Origin: Undaria pinnatifida
Taxonomy: Eukaryota; Sar; Phaeophyceae; Laminariales; Alariaceae
Direction of reading: 5' to 3'
Length of the DNA stretch: 64,000 nucleotides
Assembly (NCBI GenBank): GCA_012845835.1
Contig: JABAKD010000023.1
Location: forward strand, 23,499,108 to 23,563,107
In this document: positions 1 to 48,560 of the stretch, in pieces
Layout of the letters: each line of letters begins with the position of its first letter
Numbering within the stretch: the stretch's first letter is position 1
The notes under the pieces: model-generated
Seen by the model: the letters and a program-made list of their open reading frames with translations, nothing else
What the model was told of the DNA's origin: nothing
Database searches by the model: none
Position numbers and translations under genes: made by a program

Positions 1-118
1 TCGACCCTTCACTGCCCCAGCGTCCACAGTTTTAGCACTGCAGCGTTGACACCCTCCGCTGCTGTGCGAGTGCTCGTTTCAAGTTCGGTTCGAGAGGTTT
101 TTTCGTCTTGGCCCCCGC

Positions 119-642
119 GTGACTAGAACTTGAATTTAGTGAACGCTGAAACTCTGTGTTGGCTTTTTTGGGCAAGGCTGTCGGCGTGTGCGATGCCCTA
201 TATTCCACCATTCATGGGTACGCGGGGGCGAATACCACTTTCTGTATGGGGAAAGCTGCGATAGTGCGGCACTCTACGCTGCTGTCGACGCAACTGTCCC
301 TATATAGTGCGGTCGGTGTGGGTACGGATTTTTTTCAGCTGTTCAGGCGTTAGGCCGTCTTCCTATTGCAGCCCCCCCCCGTGACTAGAACTTGAATTTA
401 GTGAACGCTGAAACTCTGTGCTGGCTTTTTTGGGCAAGGCTGTCGGCGTGTGCGATGTCCTATATTCCACCATTCATGGGTACGCGGGGGCGAATACCAC
501 TTTTTTTATGGGCACCGCTGCGATAGTGCGGCAATCTACGTTGCTTTCGACGCAACTGTCCCTATATAGTGGGGTCGGTGTGGGTACGAATTTTTTTCAG
601 CTGTCCAGGCGTTAGGCCGTCTTCCTACTGCCGGTACTTGTG
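119..642. repeat. Tandem duplication, about 262-bp unit, two copies
   Basis: Copy 1 runs from 119 to 380 and copy 2 from 381 to about 630. Both begin with the same 40-base block (119 and 381) and share the TATATAGTG-containing middle. Each copy holds a 65-codon open frame on the plus strand, but these differ only as the repeats do and resemble no known protein. Copy 2 fades at its 3' end into a related degenerate sequence. The 118 bases before the array show nothing recognisable. Confidence 0.9.
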
Positions 643-1270
643 CTGCCCTTCCTCAATGCTGCTAGGTTAAATGCTGCAATACGTTTTTGCAGCTGTCACG
701 ACGGATACTGTCCGTTGCAATGCGGTTTACAGTTGGCGGAGACACTGAGCACTACACTTTTGGCGCAAAAGCTGCCTTTCTGCTGGTGGCAGTACACGTG
801 CTGCCCTTCGCGATGCTGCCAGGGTCTACGAATGCTGGCATTTTTTTTCTCTGCGCATGTTCGGACAGCTACTGCCCGTTACAGAGCGTTTACTACAGTT
901 CGCGGAGGTACTGCGATTTACTGCTTTTAATACTTGTAGTGCAAGTGGAGATCAGCCCGTTTGATGCGATACTTGGTTACAAACAGCCTTTCTATTCGGC
1001 TGCGGGCGTACACACCTTTTTACAGCTGGTCTTGGTATTATACCACCCTTTTTAAGGCGGTTGGTGTGGTGGGCGTACACCCCTTTTCTACAGCTGGTCT
1101 TGGTATTTTACTACCCGTTTTAAGGCGGTTGGTGTTGTCGTCACCCACGGTCACAGGAGAAATCTTGCAGCAATCAGCACTACCGTCTCTCTATAGTGCG
1201 GTCGGTGGGGGAACTGCCTTGTTCGGACGCTATACTACCCATCATGGTGCAGTTGGAATTTCGCTTGCAA
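643..1270. repeat. Degenerate CTGC-rich repeats with a 68-bp tandem pair
   Basis: The stretch continues the low-complexity style of the array before it. Short blocks such as CTGCCCTTC and ATAGTGCGGTCGGTG recur at irregular spacing. A clear tandem pair starts at 1021 and 1089 (68-bp period, common core CAGCTGGTCTTGGTAT). Open frames here are made of these repeats and I do not regard them as genes. Confidence 0.6.
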
Positions 1271-1279
1271 TTAATTTTA

Positions 1280-1710
1280 GACAGATTGACCACCTCAAGC
1301 AACACACAGCGTGCACAAACCTCCAGGAACGATTAGAGGTTGAACTATGTAGAGTAAAATGCAAAGTTGTACAACGTGTTCAGAAATATGTACATTGCCA
1401 ACCTTCGTGGCGGACCACTTTGTGCAATCTGTGTGATTGTGGCAAGATTGACAACCTCAAGCAGCACACAGGTTGCGCAAACTTCCAGAAGCATCCCAGG
1501 TTGAACTATGTAGGGTGAAATTAGGTTGTGCAATGTCTTCAGAAATACGGAGTATGTAGATTGGCAACCTTCGTGCCGAACCATTTTGTGCAACCTGCTT
1601 AATTGCGACAAGATGCACAACCGCAAGCAGCACACAGACTGCGCAAACTTCCAGAAAGGCGCCAGGTTGAACTATATAGGGCAGAATAACCAAGTTGCAC
1701 AATAATACGT
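1280..1710. repeat. Satellite, 162-166-bp unit, three copies
   Basis: Matching anchors (CAAGCA/GCACACA followed by GCGCAAAC-like sequence) lie at 1294, 1456 and 1622. Each unit then carries AGGTTGAACTA, a GTTGTACAA-like block and AACCTTCGTG. The copies differ by scattered substitutions and small indels, so this is an old array. Open frames on the minus strand follow the repeat and have no recognisable domain. Confidence 0.9.
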
Positions 1711-2139
1711 GGGACCTTGTGAGAGATTATACAATGGGGGGGGGGTCGGCCACCTGCGAACGGCTACGCCTGCTGTAGCTTTGGCGGCTCTCGGCTGAGC
1801 ACAACGCCACGAACGTAGATTTGGCGGCTTTTGGCTAATAGCTCAACGCCACCGGCAACGTTAGGTCACCACCGCCTCTGTTGCTGCATCTGCTGCTGTG
1901 GTGCTGCTCTGGTGCTGCTATGGTGCAGGTATGGTGTCGCTGTGGTAGTTTTCGTAATGCTGGTGGTGCTGCTGTCGCGTTTGTGCGAGGACGAATCTCT
2001 GTCTCGCACACAACAAGCGCGGTGTGCTGCGGTATGCTGCTGCATGTGTGTTTGTAATTTTTTTTTGTGGGTGATGGGTGACGTGTACAGCAGACAGGTA
2101 TCATACCCGGTTAGAGTTGCACCCCGTCTAAATGAGACC
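1711..2139. other. Unassigned spacer with short repeats
   Basis: The spacer contains a run of G at about 1736-1746, two related blocks near 1780 and 1820 (TTTGGCGGCT...GGCTNA), and CTG-rich sequence. The 144-codon plus-strand frame from 1831 is Val/Cys/Leu-rich low complexity, and I do not think it encodes a real protein. Confidence 0.4.
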
Positions 2140-2262
2140 CGGATACCCGGTACTGAGACCCGGGTACCCGGTGGCGGGTACCCGGAATCGTCGGACCCGG
2201 AATGGACCCGGGTGCGTTCGCGGATACCCGGGTACTTGGAGCCCGAGTACCCGGGTACCCGA
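2140..2262. repeat. GGTACCCGG-type degenerate minisatellite
   Basis: Blocks of (A/G)CCCGGGTACCCG recur about every 15-25 bases. Each block is nearly palindromic around GGTACC, so single strands could fold on themselves. It merges into the left arm of the foldback repeat that follows. Confidence 0.75.
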
Positions 2263-2627
2263 TGATTGTACTAGATACACACACTGCTGGTACAGTACAC
2301 TGAAAGGAGAGCAATGAGCGATACGCGATACACACGATACCCCTTCGAGCGGACGCGGACCTACTTTACCATGAGCGAAGAGATGTATAGGCAGCAAGGA
2401 ACTGTAGCCTCTGAGGCAGCAGGTCTTGCGGCCGCACCAGCGAAGGACATAGCAGAGGAAGCAGGACCTACTCCAGTCCCTTGCCTCCTATCTACCCATA
2501 TCTTCTCCGTCCATGGTAAAGTTGGTCCGCGTCCGCTCGTAGGGGTATCGTGTGTATCGCGTATCGCTCATCGTTCTCCGTTCAGTGTATCTATAGCACA
2601 AATATCGGATACCCGGGTACGGGGTTT
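2247..2627. repeat. Foldback element: two ~150-bp inverted arms
   Basis: The left arm (about 2247-2402) and right arm (about 2476-2627) are imperfect reverse complements. They share the blocks GATACGCGATACACACGAT, GAGCGGACGCGGACC and TTTACCATG, and a weaker match runs inward to a spacer of about 75 bp. The outer edge of both arms is the GTACCCGGGTA motif. No transposase is present and no target duplication was identified. This looks like a MITE or a rearranged palindrome. Confidence 0.8.
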
Positions 2628-2800
2628 CGTCCTGTGGCCATGGAGTACGTTTCGACGCCAGCGCTCGCAAGCCCCGGGGGGGCGCCACCAGCTGCCACCC
2701 CCCGCGCTCGACAGGGCACCACCGCCGCCACCTGGGCTCTCCGCGCTCGATAGAGCGCCACCCCTAGAGCTTCCGGTACCGGGGCGCCCATGCCGGCCTC

Positions 2801-3436
2801 TTGAACTTGGCATATGTGGCGGCGTGGGTCCAGCGGGCGCTCGACGACGCCGACCAGACGAGTATCAGGCGTGAAGCACGCCGACGTCGGTTTGAAGAAG
2901 ATGTTGAGCGGGCGAAGACCGCTGCACGGGAGGCGTGCCTGGAAGTGAAGCGGGCGCAACAAGCCCTGGCCCAATCAGTTGCGTCGGCTGCAGCGAGAGC
3001 TACCGCGGCCCCTTCGCCTTCAACGCGCCCGCAGGATGTCGCACTCCAACGACGACGACCAGGGAATGACGCCTTCTTCAAGGGCAGCGTCACGTGCATG
3101 GCGTCGGCACCAAGGGTAGACTTCTTCACAGCATTGGCGACCGCGGCGGTGGAAACGGCCTGCGCCCTCCTCACGTCAGAAAGGCCGGCGTCGCGGCAAG
3201 CGGACCCCCTTCCAGTGGAAGTGGCCTGGACTCGCATGGATTGTACCTCCTATGCAGGACAGACGAGAGCCGCCCCGACCCTTGCCCTCGTCAAGGCCCT
3301 GCGGAAGGCCGAACCCCGGAGGAAGAGTTGGCGGAACACAACCGGAGGAAACAGCGACGCAGCGACATTGGTGACCGCGGGGACCGCAACCATGGGGACC
3401 CAGGCTACGGTAGGGGGGTCCCTTTTTGGGCCTTGA
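2801..3436 (+). pseudogene. Unidentified coding relic, possibly gag-like
   Basis: A 211-codon frame begins with an Arg/Glu/Ala-rich stretch (residues about 20-65) with heptad-like character, consistent with a coiled coil. A second frame from 3094 becomes more protein-like near its end, with a Cys-poor segment followed by EEELAEHNRRKQRR, reminiscent of the basic tail after a gag zinc knuckle. This suggests a frameshift around 3230. High G+C content alone can keep frames open, so the call rests mainly on the clear gag-like coding just downstream. Confidence 0.35.
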
Positions 3437-3665
3437 ATTTCAGTGGCTAGGGGTCATTCGCGCGAGTAACCCCTATGTTATTTTGCTATCTTACGTTTTC
3501 TTCATGTTGTATATTGACGAAATCGATCCGCAATGCAAAGGTAACCTAAGATGCTCCAAAACAACTGTCTAAACCATTTTCATCCGTGAGGTACAAAGTC
3601 ACTCGTGCGACTGGCTCAAACACACCACTGGAAACGGGGGTACCCCCCCCTACCGTAGCCTTAGT
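3405..3665. repeat. Short inverted repeat around a non-coding spacer
   Basis: A block with GGCTACGGTAGGGGGG near 3408 returns as its reverse complement with CCCCCCCTACCGTAGCC near 3643. The intervening ~220 bp contains no open frame of note and lies between two gag-like blocks. It may mark an insertion or a junction between two element copies. Confidence 0.6.
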
Positions 3666-4893
3666 CTGGGGGTGGTGGCTTCCGGGGTGGCGGCAAAAAT
3701 GGTGGGGGTGGCGGGGAAGGCGCATCGGGTGCTGGCGTGGCTCAGGGCGCCGCCGAGGGGGAAATTTGGTCCAACAACCGGGGCAGTTGGCCGCAGCTCT
3801 GGCGGAGGCAAAGGAGGGCGGAGGAACGGCGCGAGAGAACGTTCAGCGTGGGATGGCTCGTCAACCTCCTCCCGCTCGTCTTCGGCCTCGAGCTCGGACG
3901 ACAGCAAGATGGCCGTGGCAGTAGACAAGAGGTGTCAAGAGCTATGACGGGAAAGGCATCTGGGCATAAGGCTTTCATCCTCCTTTTGCGTCTGGTGTTG
4001 ACGCACTTCGACGGGGTTGACACGGAGGCGAGTCATCCCACGGTAGGGGTTGCACGTTTATCGCCAAAACATCCCTGGGCGATTGAATTCCTCATGTGAG
4101 GAACTGCCGGTTAATGAAGTAATTTCATGATTACATTTTATTTTTGGACTAAGGCATAGAAGCTTGGTTGGGTAGTGCGAACGAACGCCTTCGAAGTCAT
4201 TTTTCGGGTGAGATATTGAGTTGTTCATGTGAGGAATCCAAGGGCTTTCTGCTGCAATCCTACCGTGGGATGGCTCAGGAGGGCTACACTAAGTTGCATA
4301 TTTTTGGAGTGTGTAACGGCACGCGTTTTTCTGATTTCAGTCGGGAGTTTCGCGTACTTGTGTGGACCGCTACGGGGAGTGAGCGTGTTTGGTCTCCGGG
4401 GACGGATGTGGTGTTGGAGGTGGTTCGGGTGGCGGCGAATGAGCAATTTCCGGCTCTCATGCCTGCGTTCTACCCTGGGTCGAAGGCAACTTACCCGCGG
4501 CCATAGGCCTCGTTGGATGCTATATGGCGGGCGTTTAGTGCCTAAGCGCATAGTAAGACACCTGCCGTCAACGGCGAAGCATTTTTTTCTCTGCCTGTTT
4601 CTTCGACGGGAGCGCGGGCATCCGCCCCGTCGGGGCCCCGGCCTGCCGATCATGGGCGCGGCCAGGGCCGAGTGCTGTCCCAGTCGCTTTCGTGGCAGAC
4701 GGGCATCATTACGCAGAAAGTTTCGCCGTTTATGCCTCGTTCAAGACAGACAACCCTCCTCTTTGGAGCAGCCTCCTTTCACGTCGCGCTGATGCCCTTC
4801 GAGAAAACCGGGGGCTTTGCATCAACTGCCACTAAGGCAATCATTCCTTCAAGCGTTGTAGGCGTCCTTTCATTACTGCGAGTAGCTACTTGA
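3660..4893 (+). pseudogene. Gag-like polyprotein relic (Ty3-type element)
   Basis: A coherent coding signal passes through several frames. The first part (about 3660-4099, frame change near 3840) ends with an acidic/aromatic stretch containing LTHFDGVDTEASHPTV. A second part (4168-4506) includes CEESKGFLLQSYRGMAQEGY and FSREFRVLVWTATG, then NEQFPALMPAFYPG. After the TAG at 4504 the same frame continues with a plausible ASLDAIWRAF stretch, another stop near 4541, and goes on to 4893. The continuation of sense across stops is the evidence for decay rather than separate short genes. I recognise the style as a retroelement gag but cannot name a family. Confidence 0.55.
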
Positions 4894-23059: not shown

Positions 23060-24408
23060 CACCCCATTTCATTAGGCCACCCTCAATAGTCGTAGATGCA
23101 GATCGCTCGGCAATCAAAAGATGTCAACGAAACATCCAGAATTGGAAAGGGGATCAAAGATGCGGCTATTCGAAACAAACGAAAATGAGGCTATATATTC
23201 CCCCACACCTCGTAATAATGAGGCTAAAAAGCCTCATTGCAAGAGACATACAACCGTATGACGGAGCTTACGACCGTGAGAGCTCGAGAAAGAGTATTTA
23301 CCTATGGTATACCAGTAACAATCGGCGTAAAAAACACGAAGGGCGCGGCCACTGAGCGCAAGGATGCGAAGGGAAACAAGATAAAGGTACAGACGCGGAA
23401 ACAATGTCGGAGGGGAACAAAGCAACCCATGTCACGCTGTGAAGGTCAGACAAAGTTAAGGCCTGAAACGTGGTGCCGAAGGGGCGGGCGGTAGGCCGTT
23501 TGGTCGATAGGCAGGACAAAAAGAGCCTGAAACGAGAAAACAACGAACACTGCCAAAATAATGCCAGGGTCCTCAAGGTTTGACCTGGAAGGCTGACGTA
23601 GGACCATTGGTCGAAAAACTATTTGGAACCAGTACGCTGAGGTGTAATGGAAGCAGGGGCATGTGGGACCTAAAAGGCTAGCATAAGGCCCTTGGTCGAA
23701 CTGTAGAACGGGAAACTGAGGCTACCAAAACAAATCGCGAAAACGCAGAGAAAGACAATGCCTAAACAGTGGCACAGACAACACCAATATGGTGGTACTG
23801 GAGGCGTGTGATACGCCGGAAAGCTGAACCGGGGGACAGAGTGGAGTACCCTTAGAAGCCCTCTGGGAACAGTATCAGCAAAACGGTAAGAGATATGTGG
23901 TGAGGTCACCTGGCCTAAGCAATGCGCAAACAAGGACGAAAATGAAACGTAGACACAGAAAGACGGAAGGTACTATCGGACGCCGGAAAGAGAGTCGATA
24001 TCATGCAACTCAAGAGGCGAACAAATAACAGGAACAATGCCAGCGAACGCAGAGAGGCTATTCAACCATAACAAGGCAAGCCAAAAATGGGGTCAACAAC
24101 AAGATACTCGTTCAGCTCAAAGCAGCGCTGGGACTGTCTAGCTCCATAAAAAATGTAGGGAACAGAGAAGGCAATATGAAAAAGAAGCCGCAGCTAGGTA
24201 GTACACGTCGGGAACACGGGGTCGCTAACGTGGAGCAACCCTAAAAAGGTACCCGAGAAAAAGTAGAGGGAAACCGAAAGTAGGAAAATCGTGTGATAGC
24301 GACGTACTGCAGCCTAAAAAAAAAAGGAGGGTCCATAGCAAGGGACCTTCAAAGGCTAGCTTTAAATAAAACGAGCAACACTAGTATGTAGCGAAGGCAT
24401 TCCTCCGA
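23060..24408 (+). repeat. Dispersed satellite block, copy 1
   Basis: This stretch matches the reverse complement of 54527-56320 over its whole length, with roughly 100-bp length differences. Inside it a ~95-bp degenerate unit recurs, marked by GACGTAGGACCATTGGTCGAA and CATAAGGCCCTTGGTCGAA. Open frames (for example 23237-23494) are not kept in the other copy, so I do not call a gene. Confidence 0.85.
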
Positions 24409-24802
24409 AAGGTGCCTAACGACCACAAAAAAAGTGGCTCGAGAAAATTCAAGACATGCACAACAAAACGGTCAACCAAGAGACCAAAACTCGAGCAAGA
24501 CGACCGACCATCCATACAGGCTCAAAACATCTTGATTTTAGAGTATACAAGACATCGTCACACGATCGGCAAATGCTCGCCATACCGTACAAATCAAAAG
24601 TCCAAACTTCGGGAAACGGTGTAAAGTTGTGGGTTCTGTCGTCAAAAGTGTTAACGCGCCCTCTGTCGACCATGTTACAACGGGAAAAGGTACCTATTTA
24701 GATTGTTTTCTTTTGCTTTGCAAGGAAGCTGTATGGTTAGCGATGTCAATAGAAAAAGTGAGCAGCATACGCAATAGCTGTGTTGTTCAGCCACCCCATA
24801 CA
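24409..24802. other. Spacer, nothing recognised
   Basis: A-rich sequence between the satellite block and the left repeat of the next element. Short open frames show no motif. Confidence 0.4.
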
Positions 24803-25084
24803 CAAAGAGAAATATTCTTAGGAATCGGGAACCGATAAGAATAATATGTTGGATGTTGTTCATAGAGAGAATCCGGCGTTATGGTTCATATTTTTTTTGG
24901 CGGGGTACGTACGTAGCTTGCTTTGACAGCAGCAGCTGGCATTGTTTGGTTGATCGTGCATGTGGAGATACTAAGTGGATACCGCACGGGACGGTGCTGG
25001 CAGACTGGTAGAACACGCGAACAGACAGACCTGTTGTTCACAACTGGACGGCGGTCGCTCAATGGACCAGATAATTCGTGATTT
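24803..25084 (+). repeat. Split direct repeat A1
   Basis: 282 bp from CAAAGAGAAATA to GATAATTCGTGATTT. It aligns to 31003-31284 without net gaps and with scattered substitutions. Confidence 0.9.
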
Positions 25085-25837
25085 CGTGATTCTCGAGTTC
25101 ATCGCTAGACGGCGAATCGGGAAATTAGCGAGAGCATAAAGCAACAGCGAAGGCGAAGCGCTTCATACGAGGCACAGGAAGCGAGCGAGGAAGCGTCGAC
25201 ATCGGGCCTCGCCTTGACCGGTATGATATTACGTGCAGAAGGGTTGTTATTTGTCTCCTAAATACCCGAAACTGGTGGGCCGAGAGCGTGTGTGTACGTT
25301 TGGAAACGGTTCGAGCGAGTTGTGTTGCTTGTGTAAAAACAAACAAAAACAAAAGCGGGGAAATAGCAACAAATTCAACATCATGATCAAGCACATGCGC
25401 ATCACAGATCGCGACAACGAGATATCATCGGACTCTCCCCCCGATCGAAGCAGAGATACGATTATGCTCGTAATCGTGAAAGGGATTGTGTCTGGTGGTA
25501 CTCTCGACGGCCTGGGCGTGGGTACATAACGATATTTCGAGTACATATGGCATATCGTATCACATTGGGGCAGTTCATCAGGTGAAGAACGAAAAATCTT
25601 TGTTCCAAAAAATTACTCCGGAGTACTTGTTTATATCGTACATAATGTGTTTGACAACAAGGACCGGCAGAAAAATGCGTTGGATTGCTGTGTTGAAACA
25701 TACATGGTGTGCTTGAACACAAGGACCCGGAGACAAACGAGTTGGATTACTGTTGGCGGAAACGTCAGCAATATTATCGCCATTCGATCACATGTAGCAG
25801 TAAGGAAAAAAGAAGTTACAGCAGCAGGTGGCTGGTG

Positions 25838-27136
25838 TGTCAACTGAATATGGCTCCACGTCGCGTTGGGCACAGACAAATTCATATACTCTGTAAGTTG
25901 ACCACAAAAATGCGCTCCACATTACTGCTGTTGGGTGAGTCGTGATATCATACTGCTGTTGGGTGAGTCATGATGTCATACTATACCTATTATTGCAATG
26001 GAGTTCATACGTTGTGACAAGGCGTCGCAAAAACATTGCACGTGTAAGATATCGCTCATCCCGAGCAACTGAAAAATTATTGCTGGTACCTATCGCGCTT
26101 TCGCGGTGGGGTGCAGATTAAAAATTTCAGATCGATGTGTGCGTGCACGCTATATATTATGTGGCATAATGAACGAGTGATTCCTCATGCGGACTGCTGG
26201 GTGAGAGATAATCTTCACAGCCAAACGATCGTACGTGCACGATAAATATTACGTGGCATAATGAACGAGTGATTCCCCATGCGGACTGCTGAGTGAGAGA
26301 TAATCTTCACAGCCAAAACGATCGACTCGAGGGGTCTTGAGCGCGAACACAAGTATATAATATGGCAATATCAATTAATGACTTCTCACCTGCATGGTTG
26401 GGTTAGATAAAACCCTCACAGCCAGACGCTCAAGAGGTCTTGAACGTGGATACTTGTAGATGGTCAACCACAAGGGCAGAAATTGCGTCTTGTTGGGTGA
26501 AATGTCAACTGAATATGGCTTCACGTCACGTTGGGCCCAAACTAATTAATATATTCCGTAAGTTGACCCCAAAAATCCGCTCCACATTACTGCTGTTGGG
26601 TGAGTCGTGATGCCATACTATACCTATTATTGCCATGGAGTTCATACGTTGCGACAAGGCGTCGCAAAAACATTCCACTTGTAAGATATCGTCCCGAGCA
26701 ACTGAAAAATTATTGCTGGTACCTATCGCGCTTTCGCGGTGGGGTGCAGATTAAAAATTTCAGATCAACGTGTATGGGCACGACATATATATATTATGTG
26801 GCACAATAAACAAGTGATTTCCCATGCGGACTGCTGGGTGAGAGATAATCTTCACAGCCAAACGATCGTACGTGCACGATAAATATTTTGTGGCATATTG
26901 AACGAGTGATTCCCCATGTGGACTGCTGAGTGAGAGATAATCTTCATAGCCAAAACGATCGACTCGCGGGTCTTGAGCGCGAACACAAGTAGATAATATG
27001 GTAATATGAATGAATGACTTCCCACTCGCATGGTTGGGTGAGACAAAACCTTCACAGCCACACGCTCGAGATTTCTTGAGCGTGGATACTTGTAGAGGTC
27101 AACCGCAAGGGCAGGAATTGCGTCTTGTTGGGTGAA
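25838..27136. repeat. Tandem duplication, about 635-665 bp, two copies
   Basis: Copy 1 starts near 25841 and copy 2 near 26506 (both CAACTGAATATGGCT). Copy 1 has about 30 bp extra from an internal duplication of CTGCTGTTGGGTGAGTC. Inside each copy a ~90-bp unit (GTGGCATAATGAACGAGTGATT ... GAGAGATAATCTTCACAGCC type) is itself repeated. Non-coding; it lies in the 5' part of the YR element. Confidence 0.9.
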
Positions 27137-27572
27137 AGAAAGTGAGTGGCATAATTCACAGATCGCGGCAATGCGACAAAAATCTTACAGCGCTAAAATG
27201 CGGCTGGGTATAGTGAAACTGTGTATTCTGGCTGATCTGGTCGCGATGGGGCGCAGAATGTTTCAGAATGATCGGTTTTGCCTGATGAATAGCAGTACGT
27301 AATGCTAAAATCAAGTAGTTGTGCAGTGCCACTGGATAATCTTGCTGGTACCTCTCACGCGGTTGCGATGGGGCGCAGATTAATATGTTCACACTGTTTC
27401 CGAACTGAACAGCATTATAAAAACAAAAATAGTATACGTTAGAAGAAAAAAAAAAAACGTGATCAATTCATCTCGGCCCGTAAAGCAGCGGAGCAGGCAC
27501 ATGCATACATGTGATGTCGACGTCGTGGCAAGACGACGATGGAATTGCAATACTATTGCATTACTCGATATG

Positions 27573-28090
27573 TTTTACCTTGTGTTGGTGGTAATGGTTG
27601 TCAGACAGGAAATATAAGTATTATTGCGGATACCCCTTGCGCGGTTGTGATGAGGTGCAAAATTATCTGCTATTTTGAATCGAATTGACTGACTTGCTCG
27701 CTGAAACGCCAGTCCGCAAACAAGGCAGTGGTAACGATCGAGCAATTCGCCCGATAAGCAAAGGAGTACATACACTAATATGACAAGGGTGTGTGCCCAT
27801 GCTGGCTGCTCGAGCGCATTTTTCGGTATGGTTTACCTTGTGTTGGTGGTAATGGGTGTCAGACAGGAAATATAAGTACTATTGCGGATACCCCGTGCGC
27901 GGATGTGATGGGGCGCAAAAATATTTTATATTCTGAATCGAATTGACTGACTTCCTCGCTGACACCAGTTCGCAAACAAGGCAGTGGTGACAATCGAGCA
28001 ATTCGCCTGATAAGCAACGGAGTACATAGTACATGCTGGCCGCTCGAGCGAAAATGACCAAAAGTGCGTTTATTTCCGCATATACAGTGA
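27573..28090. repeat. Tandem duplication, 258-bp unit, two copies
   Basis: The anchor TTACCTTGTGTTGGTGGTAA lies at 27575 and 27833; both copies run through GCGGATACCCC, GAATTGACTGACTT and CAAGGCAGTGGT. About 10-15% divergence by eye. Non-coding. The bases between 27137 and 27572 hold a related GGTACCT(C/A)TC..CGC..TTGCGATGGGGCGCAGA block at 27242 and 27350. Confidence 0.9.
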
Positions 28091-28263
28091 TGGCGAGCCA
28101 CCCTGGTTCCACCGGCAAAGATGTGGCCCCCTGCAAAGTTATGGTCGCCCTTTTAAAACTTGCACTCACTATGAACTCTGGCATCGTATCACGTGGTTCA
28201 TTTTTTTCTCAAAAAGAGGTTTAATTTTGACTCAAGGACACGGTGTGGCGGGAGACGACCACG

Positions 28264-29525
28264 ATGAGCGGCAAGTCGAATGGTGCGAGCAGCCGGTCGG
28301 GTGGTGCTAGCAGCAACACGGGCGAACGTTCAGTCCGTCAAGCTGAATACGCTGTGCACCGCGAGGCGGTTAACGATCGGCTTGGCGCGATCGAGGCCGG
28401 TGCGGATGAAAACGGGGAGCGACTCGAAAAGATTGAGGACAGCACCGCCGAGAACGGGGGGGCGGCTCGAAATATTGAGGACATACTCGGGCACCTCCAT
28501 ATGTCTGGATGACATCCAAGCCAACCAAGACGTTGACTGGTCGAACAGTGACCAGGGGCAGCACAACAGTGAGGCTTCCGCTCGCGGTAGCATGTCAAAA
28601 AAGATTTGGCTGAAGGAGAGGATCACGCCTCCGAAAAAACCCAACCTTCGAGCGTTTTGGATACTTGTTGTGAGAAGCCAAAGGGGTGCGAATTGTCGAG
28701 GGTCCAGCTGCAAGGGGCATTCAAGAATACCGCCCTGGCATGTTCTGCGGTAGTGGAACAGGTCAACGCTTAGGCTGGGCTCGATGTCAGCGCGTTCATA
28801 CCGCGTAGGGCGGAACCGCGCATTGCTGGCACCATCGACATCGAAAAGCAGTTCGCCATTCTGGCGAAGGTGTTGCTTCTCGTCATCGGGCGGGGCATTA
28901 CTTCGGTGGGGGGGAAGGCGCGGATGGAGAAGCTACGCGCGGCATTCAGGACGGTGTCGACATGGTGACATCACACAGCGAAGCTAACCGCCAAGAGATT
29001 CAAATGCCGGTCCACAAGGTGAGATAGCTCGCTTCACCACCAAAGATCTCGAGGCGGTTGACGACGCAGCTCTCTCCGCTAAGTCTAACCGGCACGAGCA
29101 GCGGGGGATCGACCAACTGCCAGGAGCGGTGGTTCCCACCTGGGCAAAGATTGGCGCTTACAGTGACGCCGGTGGGCTGGAGCACGTCGACATTCACAAG
29201 GAACCGGTCGCACCTCGGGAAAAAGGAGGGCGTGCGGTCAAACGTGGGCGCAAGGATGAAGACTCCGCTCAGCTTCCGTACTTCGGTTAGGCCTCCCGGC
29301 GGGGATGCCGGTTCGAGCAAAAGAGAGATCCGTGCAAGTACCGCCACGATCCGGCCGACAAATTGCGGGAACAGAAAGAAAGCGGAGGAGGCGCCAGTGG
29401 GGCCGCACACAATAACCCCAAGGCTGGTGTTCGCACGGTACCGAGCGCTTTCGCGTCGGGAAACGGAGACGGGAGCGAAAAAAGGTGGAAGCTCTGCTAA
29501 ATCGTCCAAGGGTGATGACGAATAG
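28264..29525 (+). pseudogene. Gag-like protein of the YR element
   Basis: The ATG at 28264 opens a Ser/Gly-rich start (SGKSNGASSRSGGASS) and a charged helix (RLGAIEAGADENGERLEKIE, then STAENGGAARNIEDILG), typical of a gag coiled coil. A frameshift near 28505 leads to LDDIQANQDVDWS and on to about 28753. A third frame from 28770 reads AGLDVSAFIPRRAEPRIAGT and then an aliphatic helix to about 28965. The last part (29030-29500) contains CRFEQKRDPCKYRHDP (29305-29352), close to a CCCH/CCH-type zinc finger, followed by a Lys/Gly-rich tail. DIRS-order gag proteins often end in such a finger. At least three frameshifts and a TAG at 29288 break it. No RT follows. Confidence 0.6.
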
Positions 29526-29699
29526 GGGTGCGGCAGCTGGCAGAGCCAACTTTGGCGACCGAACGAGCTCGGGTTTCAGCAAATGACGCGCAGCTTGTAC
29601 GGCCGAGGTTGGCGTCGTTTTCTCAACCAGGAGCAGAACTTGGGGCAAGCGGGTGCAAATATTGTATACAGGAGTTTTGGGCACCAGTACCTCCGTCGA

Positions 29700-30752
29700 T
29701 CAGTTGCGACATCGTTTGAAATAACTTACGCGTCGAGTTTCCGGTCTTGGTGCACTTTTCGCGGGTTAATCGCACAGGACCGGTATCTGCGACCTGTGAG
29801 TCGGAGGAGGCCAAAGTGTGAGCTTTGATGGATTTCGCTGCTTGGAGTTGTGCGTCACACGACAATCAAGCCGGATCTATTTCGACTAAGCTAGCTGCGA
29901 TCCAATAGTTCTATCGGGATCATGTTGGCATCGAGCTGTCGATCCGGCCCCCGTTGACCAACAGTGTATTGCAAGATATCTCACGATCGCATACATTGGC
30001 GGGAACACGGCCACGGGTTCGGCTCCCTATATCGGGGGATATGTTGATCAAGGGGCAGGAACTGACATCTTCCTGGGGTTCTGGGGATAAAGTGCTTTGG
30101 CTATGTCTGGGCATGAGCTAATATTTCTTAGCCAGGTCCGATGAGGTATTTGCCAATGGCTCAGGTGTGGTGAACCCAGCGCATTGTCTCACGCGAAGTG
30201 ACGTTGCGTTTTTTTTCTGGCGACAAACAGTTGAGGCGTCTTCAATGGAGTGATGCCGATCGGGATGAGGTGCGATTCCGCGGCCATAAAGGCGACCAGG
30301 CTCAGGTTGAAAGCGTCATTGTACGTACCCGGAGCGAGGTTCGGGGCCCGTGTTCCGAGTTGGGTGAAGGTGGCGGAGCCATAGCTCTTATGGTAGCACT
30401 ACTGTCATGTTTTGCGGCTCTACCTGAACACGCACCACTTTCCTCGTACCGTTCAGGGAGGCAAGTAATAGTGTGGGGATATGGTCCGGCGTTACGAGCG
30501 TTGAGAGAACTAGTTGAAAAGTCGGGGCGTAAACCCGAAGAGTACGCTCTGCACTCTCTGAGGATAGCAAGTGCCTCGATGCTTGCGGCTGGAGGTGACG
30601 TGTCGGAACGAGTCATACAGCGAGAAGGGAGGTGGAAGTCCGACGCATGCAAGGTGTACACCCGGAATAATGCGGAGGATGCACGACATGTGTCTCGTAA
30701 ACTAGCAGCTGGTAAAGGTTTGCGAAGACAGCCAGGTCAAGATACTGTATAG
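29700..30752 (+). pseudogene. Tyrosine recombinase (integrase) of the YR element
   Basis: The recombinase cuts and rejoins DNA through a tyrosine and integrates circular element DNA. The N-terminal core-binding part starts near 29700 (SFEITYASSFRSWCTFRG) and continues as STKLAAIQ and RDHVGIELSIRPPL. The catalytic part has Arg I at 30134-30136 in LARSDEVFA, the GHKGDQ turn near 30285, the HxxR motif HSLR at 30552-30563, a Trp at the second His position (GRWKS, 30633-30635) and the nucleophile Tyr at 30657-30659 in KVYTRNN. All expected active-site positions are therefore present. Lesions: a frameshift near 29800, stops at 29819, 29906 and 30119, and a frameshift near 30197. Length (about 350 residues) is normal for the family. 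It ends 37 bp before repeat B1. Confidence 0.92.
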
Positions 30753-30788
30753 GATAAACTGTAGAAGTCCCGGAGTAACCTCGGTTGC

Positions 30789-31006
30789 GGAGGAGTCAAT
30801 GGTGTTGGATCATTCGGTGTCTCAGTCGTCGGAGAATTCGCACAGTAGAACCCAGACAGTGGAGGGAGGGAGATGTGTTTAGGGGCAAAGACTATGGGTA
30901 TAAGGCAGAGTTGGATACTGCGGTAGACATGTCAGCCAGCTGCTCTCCCGCCCGAGCCACAGAAAATGATCATATAAAACGCAATTCGAAAGATACATAC
31001 AACAAA
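30789..31006 (+). repeat. Split direct repeat B1
   Basis: From GGAGGAGTCAATGGTG to about CAAAGAG; matches B2 at 31447-31668 at a 658-bp offset. It overlaps the first four bases (CAAA) of A2. Confidence 0.9.
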
Positions 31007-31284
31007 GAGAAATACTCTTAGGAATCGGGAACCGATAAGAATAATATGTTGGTTGTTGTTCATAGAGATAATTCGGTGTCATGGTTCATAGTTTTTTTGG
31101 CGGAGTACGTGCGTAGCTTACATTGACAGCAGCAGCTGGCATTGGTTGGTTGATCGCGCTTGTGGAGATACCAAGTGGATACCGCACGGGGCGGTGCTGG
31201 CAAACGGGTAGAACACGCGAACAGACAGAGCTGGTGATTACAACTGGACGGCGGTCGCTCACTGGACCAGATAATTCGTGATTT
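31003..31284 (+). repeat. Split direct repeat A2
   Basis: Copy of A1, 6,200 bp to its right, directly after B1. A 162-bp linker (31285-31446) separates it from B2. Confidence 0.9.
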
Positions 31285-31446
31285 TTCCCGCCCACCCACC
31301 CTTTTTCTTCGATGGTGAGGGGACGAAAATACTATGAGAATGTAGGTACTATTATCGTATAACTGAGGGTATATGCGCTTATTATCTTTCATTTTTTCAG
31401 TGTCATGCGAGGGTTTATATCACGGTATATGTTTTCTCGGAGGAGT

Positions 31447-31668
31447 GGAGGAGTCAATGGTGTTGGACCATTTGGTGTCTCAGTCGTCGGAGAATTCGCA
31501 CAGTAGAACCCAGACAGCAGTGAAGGGATGGAGATGTGTTTACGAGCAAAGACATGTGGGTATGAGGCAGAGTTGGATACTGCGGTAGACATGTCAGCCA
31601 GCTGCTCTCCCTCCCAAGCCACAGGAAATGATAATATACAACGCATTTCGCAAGGTAAATACACCAAA
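31447..31668 (+). repeat. Split direct repeat B2
   Basis: Copy of B1; includes GTCTCAGTCGTCGGAGAATT and CAGAGTTGGATACTGCGG. Its end reads CACCAAACCG, sharing CAAA with the starts of A1 and A2. This is the probable right end of the element. Confidence 0.9.
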
Positions 31669-32480
31669 CCGCACAATTATACGACCAGCACAGCTCAACA
31701 ACTAGACCCAGCACAGAGTAGTCAGGTAAAATTACCAGTAACCAAGGAAGAAGCCGACATCGCAAAAAAACAGGAGAGCGGCTAAAAAAAAAAAAAAACT
31801 AGCGATGAACTTGTCGCTCGGACGGGAAGGTCGTTTGCCGCGATGGGGGTGATCAGACGCGCTGCGCTGAGATTTCCGCAGCGTGGTGATTATCAAGCGT
31901 TGCAGCGGCTGAACAACGACGCGACGCGAGCCCGTGTCGTGGCCGTTGCTCGATGCACTGAGGACGCCGAAGCTTGACGATCAGCCGAAACATTCGCCGA
32001 ACAGCACAAACAAGCATCGGAAACATTCGAGCTGTTGAGTGGAATGATGTGGCAGTTGAATTGGCGGACGAAATACAGCGGAGGAAGCGCCCTGAAGCGG
32101 ACACGCGCGAAGCCCAAGCGGCACCGGAAGTCGAGGTTGAGGGGAGGAGATAGAACTGAGTTTACTATCAGTCTTATACCGCCGCCAAGTCGTGTTGGCA
32201 ACATCCGATCGGTTCGTGTTGTACCAGATGATGCCGAGCAAACTAACCAGGCGCTGCCGTGGCCAATTATGCCAAGCACCCTTCCCGAGAAAACCCATGA
32301 AAAACAAATTCTCCATGCCCGCGTTCATGGGGAGGTGGAGGACATGCAACAGACAGCCGATGCGAAACGCACATATGATGCAAGAGGGAAGCACCAGGGT
32401 GTCTGCGACATCGTCCATCCGTCGCTACTGCTGCTGCTTATCGCAAGCACTTTCGTTCCTCCTTGTTCCTATTAACAACC
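31669..32480 (+). pseudogene. Unrecognised coding relic
   Basis: After a run of A (31786-31798) a frame reads charged and Ala-rich sequence (VIRRAALRFPQRGDYQALQR, VVAVARCTEDAEA), then a stop at 31976 and FAEQHKQASETFELLSGMM. A helical, coiled-coil-like protein is suggested. Other frames continue to 32475 without a known motif. It may belong to yet another retroelement. Confidence 0.3.
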
Positions 32481-33739
32481 GGATATACTCGTCTTCTCCT
32501 TTTGCCCATCACGAGTTAATCTACTGATTGATGGAATACTTACGGTGACTTTTCGTTTGGGGCTGCTGAAATTTTGGTTTTCGGCGACGTCTGCTGTCTT
32601 CAGACTTGGTTGTGATAGGTTGAAGTTTTGAATTTCCTTTGTACTCATAGCGACCTATGGACACTCTTAGTGCTGGTACCGGCTATAAAACACACCTTAC
32701 GCGCTCTGCTAACCGTATAATGGCTTGCATGAAATATAAAGCTTAAGATCACTATACTTCCAAATATATCCATGCGCACCGTGTGTCAATTTTAACGCCA
32801 TTGTATTCGCAATATTATCTTCACAGTAGTAGATAATATCTTATCGTAACGCATGGGACATTGTTTCTTGTTTTCATGTCATCTATAATGTTTTACTAAA
32901 TATGATGTCATTACTATGTCTCATTGCAGGTTTATGTGGACTATTTGATGTGGTGAAAGAGCTCCGCATGGGCGCCGGCGATGCCGGCACCCATGCTTCG
33001 GGTAGGGTAGGGCAACACTTCGAATTGTTCCAGATCCAACATTCGATAGAGTGAAAAAAGTAACCACATACACACATAGTCCACGCCTTCAGCATGTCAG
33101 GCAATGCCAAGATTTCGATTTAGGCTAGCAATGGACTAATTGCTGCCATTCCTGAGTGAATCCGATTCCGAGCGTCATCAGATTTCGATCGGATAAATCC
33201 GACCACACGCCGACTGACCTTTTAGTCTGGCCATGAAGAGTTGTGTCGAGTTCGTTTTTATTATGTATTTACTCAATCAAGCATCCGGGGCCAGCAAGGT
33301 GACTGACCATGTCTGCTGCGTATTCTCTTCGTAGTCACTGAGAGGAGCGCACTGAGCCAGCTTCTTCTGTTATACCATGCATAGTAGTATCTAGATCCGA
33401 GCCTCGCCGACCGACTGTCTGTGTGTAGTCTGATCGTTGAGAGACGTGCTGACGATGTTCCAGGTGCGAAACACGGTATCACTGCCTTCGCCATTCAACT
33501 CCTCCAATGCTATTGCAATGCTTCTGCTTGTTGCTATAGATTGCTCACTTGTAGATACAGTACCAGACGGTACGTACAATTTTTGCAGTTAAGAATATCA
33601 GACTCGAGCTTTAGACGAAAATAAAAAGCATGGCCTTTTAGTTTGATCGCTCATTGGCCGGGGCTCGTATGATACACAAGGTAAGCGTTACCCGGGGACG
33701 ATAGGGTCACATCTCGGGATCGCAATCCACCCACACATT
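32481..33739. other. AT-rich spacer, no gene recognised
   Basis: Nothing coding was recognised on either strand. It contains the strong hairpin listed at 32966-32996. Confidence 0.4.
32966..32996. other. Strong hairpin, 14-position stem with one mismatch
   Basis: GCATGGG and GCCGGC on the left pair with GCCGGC and CCCATGC on the right around a GAT loop, with a single C/A mismatch. The flanking CTCCGCATGGGCGCC recurs at 45178, so the half-site is also found elsewhere. Function unknown; not followed by a T-run. Confidence 0.7.
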
Positions 33740-34640: not shown

Positions 34641-34787
34641 AAATCCTCCAAGGTATAGTTACAACTAAAATAAAATGGAGCCACTCGTACTGCTGTATTT
34701 CTATTTAAATGCCCCCGCCCTGGTACGCTGACATTTCAATTGAGCCCCCGCCTCGAAAGGAACCCAACCTCCCGGTACCCGATGGAT

Positions 34788-35013
34788 CGGCTCAGCTGGG
34801 GCTCGTGGATAGAGCAAATAAACACCACTAAAAGTTCAGCAAGTTCAATGACTATCATCTCATGTACTAGCCTGTAACTATTAGAAAGAAGTTGTACAGT
34901 CGGCTCAGCTGGGGCTCGTGGATAGAGCAAATAAACACCACTAAAAGTTCAGCAAGTTCAATGACTATCATCTCATGTACTAGCCTGAAATTATTAGAAA
35001 GAAGTTGTACAGT
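34788..35013. repeat. 113-bp tandem duplication, almost exact
   Basis: Copies 34788-34900 and 34901-35013 start CGGCTCAGCTGGGGCTCG and end GAAGTTGTACAGT. Only about two differences were seen, so the duplication is recent. Confidence 0.95.
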
Positions 35014-36090
35014 CAAGATGAATCAATTGCATAATTCATAGCATCATTGAGTCCAGATCGAGTGCGAGATCGGTGCAACTTGCTTTGGTATCGTATTATA
35101 GCAGCAGGAATAAATGCACGTCAAAAAAAAAAACATCCAGCAATCAGCAGCAAGGAGCACAATTGTCAAGTAAGAAGCACACAAAATTAACTGTCCACTA
35201 AGCTACATACCAACACGACACCCGCTTCCAGTTGACCGGCAAACGACCAAAACGGCAGCAACGGAGACAGGCGCCACAGCAACAGCACGACTTCCACACC
35301 GCCTATACTGTTCCAAAGAGTCCTGGGGAGAGGGCAACCCGCCGATGCCATACCGGGACGAATGCATGCAACTGGTTTCGTCCGTGGATACCGTCTACTA
35401 CGACCTTTGCTTGGCGCAGCTTAAAAAGAGAACGATGTTTTCCCTTGTTTTTCATGTCGAAAAGTTATTCCCTGTTTTTTTGGTACACCCTCCCCATACC
35501 ATATACGTCCAGACTCAAAGAAACGCTCGAGAGTACGGTCAGACAAAGAGCGTGTGTGCTCTTACTCGTTCCCATATAATACTTGCACGAGTACAAACTC
35601 ATATATGTGTGTGTGTCCACATGCCCAAACTCGTGAAATACCACCCTCGAGGCCGGGACAAAGCAACTCGTACCGCTGCTGCGTGGCTTTTTCTGGCGCA
35701 GTACTCTTATCACTACCTCCTCGTTTAAGCCATGCATGCACTTGCCATCTATCCACATAGTCTATGTACGTACCGAAATTCAAAAGAAAGTACACTACTG
35801 TGGATACCTAACGCAGTACTACAGCACTATGGGGTCTTGTTAAACAGTACAAATTATTTGTTTAGGGTCAAAATATCAAAATGATGTCAATTTGGAAATG
35901 CCTTCCCATGTTTTATTTAATCAACCTCTTCATACGTCAAGATCCAAATAAAAGCTCGAGAGTACCGTCCAAAATACAAAATGTTAGTCACTTCTCGCTT
36001 GTCTCCCGCAGCCCCCATACGCGTTCACAGCCAGGTATGGAACGGATAAGGCATGGCGACGGGCGTTGGAGCCGCCCCTCGAAGACAGCG
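35014..36090. other. No gene recognised
   Basis: Overlapping frames at 35232-35760 lack a known motif. A related block (CGTC(A/C)AGA(C/T)...GCTCGAGAGTACGGTC) occurs at 35505 and 35935, suggesting worn duplication of about 430 bp. Confidence 0.4.
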
Positions 36091-44300: not shown

Positions 44301-46048
44301 AGAGGGGCTTCGCCGCAACCTCTTCTGTGCGTGAAAATTCAACAACATACAGCATGCTGCAGCAACGGCAGCACCAGCAGTACGACAAACAGCAAGCAGC
44401 ATTCAGTGTAACATGTAAAAATTAACAAAAGTAATAACAATACTAATAGTAATATACCTAACTAATATTACGTGTGAACGCTCCCGTGCAAGCGGGGCAA
44501 TTCGCCCTACTCTCAAAACAGTACACTTACAACTCTCCGCTCTACTGCTCGCCACCCGGCCCCCAGTGACCACACGCCAGTGCCACGCCCGCCCCACACA
44601 TCAGGCCTCGGTGTCCCCGGCGACGCAACGGCCAACGAGTCCCAAATCCGCGAGCGGGGGGCATAAAAAGCCTCTCACGGGGACGGCTCGAGCTCTTCTT
44701 CGGATGGCGGAGAATCGTAAGAAAGTGCAAATTCCACCCAGCTCCTGCCGTACTGCCGTTGAAGATTGGTCGGTACGTATGCTCCACTGCTGTTGTACGG
44801 CTGTGGTAGTGCCGCTGCTGCTGCTGCCGCTGCTGTTGATGCTGCTGCCTCTGCTGTTGAGGCTGCTGCCGCCGCCGCTGCTGCTGCTGCTGCTACTGGT
44901 GACTACTGCGTTTGTTTCTAAAAACAAAAAACGGCTTTCTGTGGCCATGACCTCGCCTAGCCAACGCCAGTGCAGCGTGTGCTCCTCCTCCTGCCGGAAA
45001 ACCGCTGTAGACACTACTGCTGCTGTGTCCCAATTCCTTGCTGGGTTATCGCCCGACTCTGCGACCGCAGCCGCTGTCGCCGCTGCTGCTGCTGTGTTTT
45101 GCTGGTGGTGGTGCTGCTCTCGCTCTCTTCTGTGCATGTTCCTAACGTTTGCTGTCTTTGTTGAGATCTACAAGGGCTCCGCATGGGCGCCGCGGCTGTG
45201 CCGCAATCCCTTGCTGGGCTATCGCCCGCCTCTGAGATTGCCGCCGCCGCTGCTGCTGTGTGTTGCTGCTGCTGGTCCTGCTCTCACTCTCTTTTATGCA
45301 TGTTTCTAAAGTGTGCTGTGTTTGTTGTGCTGATCTGTGCCGTGCGTGGATTTTTCACATTAATCATGTTTCCTATACTGAGCCCTATATGTTTATTTGT
45401 ATGTCATAGCTGCGTAAATAGTCGATGTCTGAGTGGATCTGTGCAGTTTTTAGTAATATTTTCCGCATTTTTTGTGTGTTTTTCTTATAACCATGTACCA
45501 CTCAGCTTGCAAAGTTTTGTTTCAACCATTCAATCGGTCGTACTCAAAGCTGACGTTTTTTCACACTTTTTTTATAAAAACATGTTTTTTGTGTAAGGTA
45601 TAGCTGCCGCGCGGCTGCTGCTTCTGCGGCTGTTGGTGTCTCCTGTGAGTACGTTTCTAATAATAATAAAACGGCTGTCTGTGGGCTTGAGCTCGCCAAG
45701 CCAGCTTGTGTGTACCCCCTCGCCCTTTCAACCGCGGTTTTCTTTCCATTTTCTTCCCATCTATTTCTCACCTATCCACACCACCACAGTTCTCCCTACT
45801 ATATATTTTACAACCTTCTTCTTTGCGTTTTCTTTCGTTTTTCCAATCCCTCTACTATGCAGAACATCAACAGCTATCTACCGCACCTTCGCATATGCTT
45901 GTGCGCAAACCCAATGCCGACAAACCCACAACTTTTAACGGAATACATATATATATGTGTCAAATACATGTACCACCTCAACCTCTTGGTACGGTCCCAT
46001 CGTTAGTCACGTCCTTTCAGCGAAACTATTATGGAGAGCGGGGCCACC
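44301..46048. repeat. CTG/CCG-rich low-complexity region with a 173-bp tandem pair
   Basis: CTG, CCG and GCC runs dominate 44780-45290. A tandem pair with the anchor CCTTGCTGGG at 45036 and 45209 spans about 45010-45336. The long plus-strand (247-codon) and minus-strand (178-codon) frames are trinucleotide-repeat frames (poly-Leu, poly-Ser). The rest (45340-46048) is T/C-rich without a recognised gene. Confidence 0.7.
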
Positions 46049-47733
<1,685 letters not shown>

Positions 47734-47734
<1 letters not shown>

Positions 47735-47790
47735 TAATAATAATAATATACTAATAATAATAATAATAATAATTAATAATAATAATAATA
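47734..47790. repeat. AAT trinucleotide run
   Basis: About 18 units of (A/T)AAT directly after the GAT tract, likely a compound microsatellite. Confidence 0.95.
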
Positions 47791-48560
47791 ACAAGATCTC
47801 CCTTCGGAGTGGGCTCATGAGAGCACAGCGGATGGGGGTGATGCAAGACGAAAGCAAACAGTGATATAGATTTGAAACGCCTCTTTTCCAGCAACAACCC
47901 GCTGCCGAAACACAGCGCGAACCACTTCCTGTACGAACGCATACGGATGTTCAGCCCGTGTCAACACTGCTGAGCGGCGCACCCAGCCCCTAAGTAGTAT
48001 GACGATATTATGTTAAACTAAAAAAAAAATATAATTGAAAAACAGTTTTCAGTCATGGATCGCTATCATTATTATTGTGCGCGTTCGAAGGTGACAGAGT
48101 GCAGTAGTGAAGGGAATTGGCGTGGAAAAGAACAGTGAGAATGTTTGGCTGGTGAGGGTCAGCCGGCGGTGGGTAATTTGTTCCAGCGACCCGGACTTCT
48201 ATGATCACCCCGTATAGTATCACGGCGGCCGCTACCCCTGCAAAACACACCACCAACAGTTCCGGCCCCAGATTTTGCATACAGAACCGGGTGCTCCTGT
48301 ACGGACGCTCGTGTCAACACAGCTGCGCATAGCTGTGCCTTACAGCTGTGCCTTACAGCAGTGCTCGTAGCTGGCATATGACGATTTTCTGTTGAACTAT
48401 GACTTTTTTTTGTTCAACTGCTTCTGTCGTTGTGGCATATGTATGCGATTTTTTGTTGTTGACGGTGCAGCTCCCATGCAAGACACAGCAATAGCAACCC
48501 CGGCCCCACTCCCGCGGCCCCAGATATACAGAAGAACCGGCTGCTCCTGTACGGACGCAT
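47791..48560. other. No gene recognised
   Basis: Open frames on both strands are short and carry no motif. The block TACGGACGC(T/A)..GT..CA..GCTG near 48300 resembles the duplication that follows. Confidence 0.4.

Follow-up and report, generated by a model that had tools for sequence, protein, structure and literature searches.

The window, a stretch of 64,000 nucleotides from the brown alga Undaria pinnatifida (assembly GCA_012845835.1, contig JABAKD010000023.1, positions 23,499,108 to 23,563,107 of the forward strand), carries at positions 24802 to 31668 an element with split direct repeats (A1-B1-A2-B2) and a gene for a tyrosine recombinase (YR). Very probably, this element is a Ngaro-like YR retrotransposon copy that is old, degenerate and non-autonomous: gag and YR are retained, whereas reverse transcriptase (RT) and RNase H were lost at a single junction, in one event or in several, before the form multiplied. 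The window copy is termed an RT-less derivative because one defining Ngaro-like feature, RT-RNase H, is missing from it. The features of the element are listed below; a slash marks the junction.

24802-25084, + strand: A1 repeat, left terminus of the element, 92% identical to A2; 15 of 17 other left-end A rows begin within the first few A bases.
25085-28250, + strand: non-coding leader of ~3.1 kb with tandem duplications, common to RT-less copies and the RT-containing copy L017.
28264-29525, + strand: gag-like gene broken by frame changes, recognized by protein matches; terminal TAG at 29523-29525.
29628-29766, + strand: RNase H remnant, matching residues 708-753 of 753 of protein P0059 in tblastn and overlapping the YR start in another frame.
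29631-29632, + strand: junction at which ~2.05 kb of RT-RNase H is missing; CAG/GAG here, CAG/GTGGGG on the left side and CAG/GAG on the right side in L052.
29632-30752, + strand: tyrosine recombinase gene, degenerate, with two frame changes and stops; the R, HSLR, GRW and Y residues are still readable.
30789-31006, + strand: B1 repeat, 90% identical to B2 over 222 columns, start-to-start distance 658.
30996-31006, + strand: B1/A2 overlap TACAACAAA, a putative copy of the circle junction, from gapped alignment and comparison of ends.
31002-31284, + strand: A2 repeat, 283 bp, 92% identical to A1, start-to-start distance 6,200.
31285-31446, + strand: spacer S between A2 and B2, 162 bp, conserved in the family (82-93% identical copies in 14 of 20 fetched stretches).
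31447-31668, + strand: B2 repeat, right terminus (...ACCAAA), 90% identical to B1.

In the window, gag joins YR directly; RT is absent, and RNase H is reduced to its ~45 C-terminal residues. Proteins P0059 and P0061 matched the window solely at their last ~45 residues, just past the gag end. The same tail-only RT-RNase H match was obtained for L013-L016, L018, L019 and L022, and no match for L012. The window junction recurs at 12 other places (13 rows) and in public protein P0042. Private decay of a full element, with which the degenerate state of the window copy would agree, was rejected because this junction is common to other copies, and it is regarded as extremely improbable.

Three copies contained RT sequence and were matched by RT-RNase H proteins across the RT domain. 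L017 carries the same A, B and S repeats, with RT preceded by gag and followed by the second half of YR, and L052 and L053 showed the order gag-RT-RNase H-YR-B1-A2-S-B2 with frame changes and the same leader (their longer stretches were compared from gag to B2, A1 being outside). The RT of all three is itself broken. In the host genome, RT-bearing copies lie at C30:21830500-21836700 and C34:7211000-7217700. Overall, 16 of the 19 places with gag/YR (17 rows) were RT-less; RT sequence was present in three, two of which (L052 and L053) had gag-RT-RNase H-YR. Loci had been picked by similarity to the window element's own A or B repeats, which favours RT-less copies, and L019 and L022 were counted as one place since they share flanks.

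A YR without RT in the window copy would also suit a Crypton, i.e., a YR DNA transposon, standing beside unrelated repeats. This is hardly credible: RT-RNase H stands upstream of YR in L052 and L053, which share the B1-A2-spacer-B2 unit and the leader with the window copy; the same repeats, leader and gag thus accompany RT-RNase H-YR there, and A and B occupy the same positions at 8 other loci.

The repeats agreed closely with the preliminary description, which had given A repeats of 282 bp at a spacing of 6,200 bp (283 bp at 92%, spacing 6,200), B repeats of ~220 bp at 658 bp (222 columns at 90%), and a YR ending 37 bp before B1 (frame end at 30752, B1 start at 30789). Gapped alignment of 24797-25084 with 30996-31284 yielded 265 identities in 288 columns with one gap; the B1-A2 overlap measured 5 bp ungapped and 11 bp in the gapped alignment. 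Such repeats are not due to chance, because the longest off-diagonal direct match in the shuffled region reached 31 bp at most (50 shuffles, blocks of two bases). The order A1-...-B1-A2-B2 was found at 8 other loci, in one of which, L017, A1 lacks its first 34 bases. Among the left-end A rows, L018 starts 7 bases and L017 34 bases inside A, and L021 and L024 are duplicates of L019 and L023, respectively, the latter pair being recognized as such by shared flanks. Nothing notable emerged when the B1-A2 junction was folded as RNA (z -1.8), and Rfam gave no match at gathering scores. A DIRS1-like structure, with inverted terminal repeats and an internal complementary region, was rejected after no inverted pair of at least 30 bp was detected in 24000-32500.

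YRs integrate circular intermediates. In most of 18 rows, the left end starts at GAGAAATA or a near variant, often behind A-rich bases. The right end reads ACAACAAA in 10 of 15 cases and a variant in three, and stops earlier in two (the duplicate pair L023/L024). The internal B1-A2 unit equals the right and left ends joined, TACAACAAAGAGAAATA or close to it. No target-site duplication of more than 5 bases was found at the 8 loci with both ends, where the longest shared flank word was 5 bases and shared words were mostly A-rich core words; the comparison was made without L017, L018, L023 and L024, and duplications of 5 bases or fewer would escape it.

A life cycle of the following kind is proposed. 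The element would be transcribed from A1, and reverse transcriptase would be supplied in trans by RT-bearing members. Incomplete cDNA ends may then be completed by copying the internal B1-A2 unit, which would give a circle, and YR would recombine the B-A junction of this circle into A-rich host sites.

Copies were sampled from the host assembly (511 Mb, 68 contigs). With the A repeat, 612 first-look candidates were obtained, and the 40 that were scored all reached 90% or above; with the B repeat there were 215, of which 40 were scored. Twenty stretches of 10 kb were fetched. Ten of them (9 loci, as L021 and L022 overlap) were elements with gag and YR sequence; among these, A1 of L013 was outside the stretch and the YR of L014 was mostly deleted. 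The remaining ten consisted of four A-S-B units (S being interrupted by an insertion in one of them), one 3' end (L030), four A repeats with a piece of the leader, and one A alone. A and B repeats outside full elements look like remnants. In a second sample, comprising 20 short stretches upstream of B matches, 8 RT-less junctions, 2 cases of RT-RNase H before YR, 1 of gag only, 4 of A or A-S, and 5 with none of these were observed. The flanks of 7 RT-less element loci differed, save for L019/L022 (the flanks of L054-L061 were outside this comparison).

The solo A-S-B units (L020, L023/L024 and L028) are comparable to solo long terminal repeats (LTRs). They also resemble SIRE, the truncated VIPER of Trypanosoma cruzi, which is an A2-B2 remnant; however, SIRE has no genes, whereas the window family retains gag and YR and loses RT-RNase H (passages of PMC6681497).

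Split-repeat YR retrotransposons are known. The layout had been taken in advance as a diagnostic mark of PAT/Ngaro-type DIRS elements. At the level of the order this assignment stood, but the A1-B1-A2-B2 layout is not specific to PAT/Ngaro, because VIPER has the same layout according to those passages (PMC6681497). With Ngaro-like elements (order DIRS) the family shares A1-[ORFs]-B1-A2-B2 (ORF, open reading frame) with internal repeats downstream of YR, as well as gag, YR and, in L052 and L053, RT-RNase H between gag and YR. It differs from them in the missing RT-RNase H (in the window and at the 16 of 19 places), the lack of an ATG at the usual YR start, and the long leader with tandem repeats.

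PAT-like elements likewise possess split direct repeats. A Dam methyltransferase marks DIRS and not Ngaro, as stated in parts of PMC3783388 and PMC4157794. The corresponding domain, PF05869, was matched by none of 8 RT-RNase H proteins, in contrast to PAT-like elements; this absence is a weak test, because in the same Pfam scans RT, too, went undetected or was only just picked up (best RVT_1 E 0.084). In both L052 and L053, YR overlaps the end of RNase H, so that no space remains after RNase H. Judged from these sequences, a Ngaro-like affiliation seems to fit weakly better than PAT. For Ectocarpus, 15 Ngaro and 5 PAT-like families are given in a part of PMC12477816.

The route by which RT was lost was considered separately from the identity of the element. 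On the left of the junction, CAG/GTGGGG was found in both L052 and L053, and AAG/GTGGGA in L017; on the right, L052 has CAG/GAGCAG and L053 has AAG/GAGCAG. Of the 17 RT-less rows, nine read exactly CAG/GAGCAG and five carry private changes (L013, L014, L016, L019 and L061). In the other three (type 2: L012, L054 and L060), the join lies 36 bp further along and reads CAG/GAGTTTTGG or a variant.

The first possible route is splicing. Part of the family's RNA would have lost RT-RNase H as a GT-AG intron, with the gag/pol frame thereby fused to YR, and such spliced RNA would have been reverse transcribed and multiplied. The junction fits GT-AG, which is expected for only 2.2-2.8% of deletions at microhomology: of the microhomology pairs of at least 4 nt in the same intervals, 35 of 1,594 (L053) and 45 of 1,635 (L052) were GT-AG compatible. 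Pyrimidines made up 68% and 70% of positions -50 to -3 of the right side, corresponding to the 99th percentile of 128 and 119 AGs. Over the nearest 27 bases, the percentiles were the 83rd and 91st, and over the nearest 17 (-20 to -3) the 41st and 56th, so that the immediate vicinity is ordinary and speaks against this route.

The start of YR is also in favour of splicing. At the aligned position, ATG is present in two other families of the host genome and in P0002 and P0015, while TTG was found in 16 of 16 window-family rows keeping the site; no ATG common to the 16 rows was found in the next ~110 YR codons. The junction places YR in the gag frame behind TAG, and this frame is open across in L015, L018 and L022. 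In 4 of 9 rows, a sense codon takes the place of the TAG at the gag end. RT follows in the gag frame in L053 but not in L052 and L017 as they stand. The mixed affinities of RT-less copies described below would suit repeated loss at one junction. In addition, removal of rt by splicing is stated for CRR in a part of PMC3735527.

On the other hand, the common CAGG also permits ordinary deletion at microhomology, and the GT-AG pattern was spotted post hoc. Type-2 copies may stem from a separate splicing event, but their gag places them with L061, a type-1 copy, and slippage between two CAGGAG words explains their junction, which leaves YR out of the gag frame. BARE2, a parasite of BARE1, and spliced CRR/copia RNAs offer a parallel in the non-autonomous use of a partner's proteins and in the removal of pol sequence by splicing. 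In contrast to the present family, these are LTR elements, BARE2 lost Gag and not RT, and DNA copies of spliced BARE RNA were not found in barley and could not be amplified (same part of PMC3735527). Altogether, splicing is a real possibility but leans towards the doubtful side.

The second route is a deletion of the ordinary kind between CAGG words, or slippage on the template in the course of reverse transcription; transposition and recombination would then have spread the junction. Retroelements commonly have derivatives with internal deletions, and a microhomology of 4 nt is present at both breakpoints in L052. L052 and L054 point in the same direction: between L052:4154-5149 (with RT) and L054:1473-2553 (without RT), the YR block is 92-99% identical, compared with 86-93% in gag and 89% past YR, a pattern which suggests recombination between RT-bearing and RT-less forms. 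Under deletion or slippage, however, it would be coincidental that the junction fits GT-AG, that a stretch rich in pyrimidines lies upstream of its right side and that YR lacks its start codon. This second route is rated slightly more probable than not.

Only tentatively, a further-reaching scenario may be put forward, in which a Ngaro-like lineage dispensed with the YR start codon and expresses YR from RNA whose entire RT-RNase H gene has been spliced out. Such RNA, reverse transcribed perhaps more than once, would have given rise to a successful parasite with gag and YR, more numerous than its RT-bearing parents in the set of copies compared. In the portions of the literature searched, neither an RT-less Ngaro family with gag and YR nor a spliced Ngaro YR transcript was found to be reported. 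To our knowledge, the expression of the overlapping YR gene and the origin of non-autonomous forms are not settled. The present family lets both questions be tested directly, as a multiplied gag-YR form lacking RT shares one genome with RT-bearing relatives, its junction is defined and has features of splice sites, and the start codon of YR is absent.

The distance between A1 and A2 within elements was 6.4-9.4% (8 elements), compared with a mean of 8.0% between elements (398 pairs). For B, 3.4-14.5% was obtained within 11 elements and a mean of 7.8% between them, with more scatter than for A. Because the within-element A1-A2 distances resemble those between elements, the copies would fit an origin in one old burst followed by decay without visible constraint. 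In the gag tree, the three RT-bearing copies formed a clade (support 0.994), the three type-2 copies together with type-1 L061 a small clade (0.970), and L013 grouped with L019/L022 (0.978); most other inner branches were short.

Several observations weigh against the interpretation of the element as a member of one multiplied RT-less family served by RT-bearing relatives. The RT-bearing copies are not a clade in the YR tree. At sites distinguishing the RT-bearing from the main RT-less group, the window has the state of the latter in 12 of 23 cases in gag but in only 1 of 11 in YR. A single clean RT-less lineage is therefore not established; RT may have been lost repeatedly at the same junction, or copies may have recombined. 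The proportion of 16 of 19 is not a census, because loci were picked by A/B similarity. Stop-free RT frames come from other families, and their action on the ends of the window family is only hypothetical; mobilisation was not observed. Moreover, use of the RT-less family's own YR is without visible support, and YR too may be supplied in trans. In nine compared YR rows, substitutions were spread evenly across the three codon positions (pairwise 8.9, 9.9 and 8.6%; singleton columns 96, 106 and 88; informative columns 15, 20 and 19), with no third-position excess as a mark of selection. As codon positions differ equally, there is no sign that this YR was used.

The assignment of the stop-free RT frames was based on a search of the host genome with P0043, which gave 2,580 first-look candidates, 56 of which were scored, and 81 matches; 30 of the 81 span at least 690 of 803 residues without a stop. 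These frames are at 70-85% to P0043, compared with 42-47% for the RT of L017 over its two longest pieces, and were therefore ascribed to other families. The RT-RNase H relatives were found by way of contig L001, and 18 of 30 matches were aligned. The model of the P0059 RT-RNase H (mean predicted local distance difference test, pLDDT, 83) had its best matches in the RTs of cauliflower mosaic virus (CaMV) and Ty3, with low overall template modelling (TM) scores of 0.24-0.29 of query.

Many stop-free RT-RNase H frames of other Ngaro-like families are present in the host genome (e.g., C26:3675872-3678265 and C56:9673854-9676058), and the many equal-scoring RT copies of one such family suggest recent activity. 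In public ORF P0019, RT (ending VVRPG) is joined straight to YR with RNase H missing, which is perhaps a second, independent internal loss.

The conceptual YR translation retrieved 41 relatives at E ≤ 0.01 (7,994 candidates scored). The only named one was from Ectocarpus sp. CCAP 1310/34, 59% identical to the query over 68% of its length, and this match by itself points to a brown alga as the probable host. When 23 of the 41 were aligned, the catalytic residues R and H-x-x-R proved invariant, and W and Y were kept in at least 90%; Pfam PF00589 was matched by 4 of the 23. As the structure predicted for the relative P0002 (mean pLDDT 77) had Cre as its best match (E 3.6e-10, TM 0.61 of query), the protein is a predicted Cre-like tyrosine recombinase. 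No relative of YR was found by tblastn against phages or by the IMG/VR scan.

The GTDB search with YR returned one contig, L001. It is binned as a Rickettsiales metagenome-assembled genome and carries at 1-3704 a eukaryotic-type RT-RNase H-YR element, which is probably host or contaminant DNA.

The gag-YR query gave 13 protein matches, and a C-x8-C-x8-C-x3-H motif was seen near the gag end in other copies, e.g., L015. Pfam gave no match for 6 reading frames of the window or 3 gag-YR frames. The leader of the window copy contains duplicated units of ~636 bp at 25829-27137, with ~92-bp units inside, and of ~257 bp at 27558-28028. L019 and L021/L022 have a leader that exceeds the one in the window by several kb and includes extra repeat units; in L021/L022 it also contains unmatched sequence.

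Outside the element, two tandem copies of 113 bp with 98% matches were observed at 34787-35014 of the window. A trinucleotide microsatellite at 46003-47950, longer than 1 kb judging by its frames, gives rise to long spurious reading frames on both strands.

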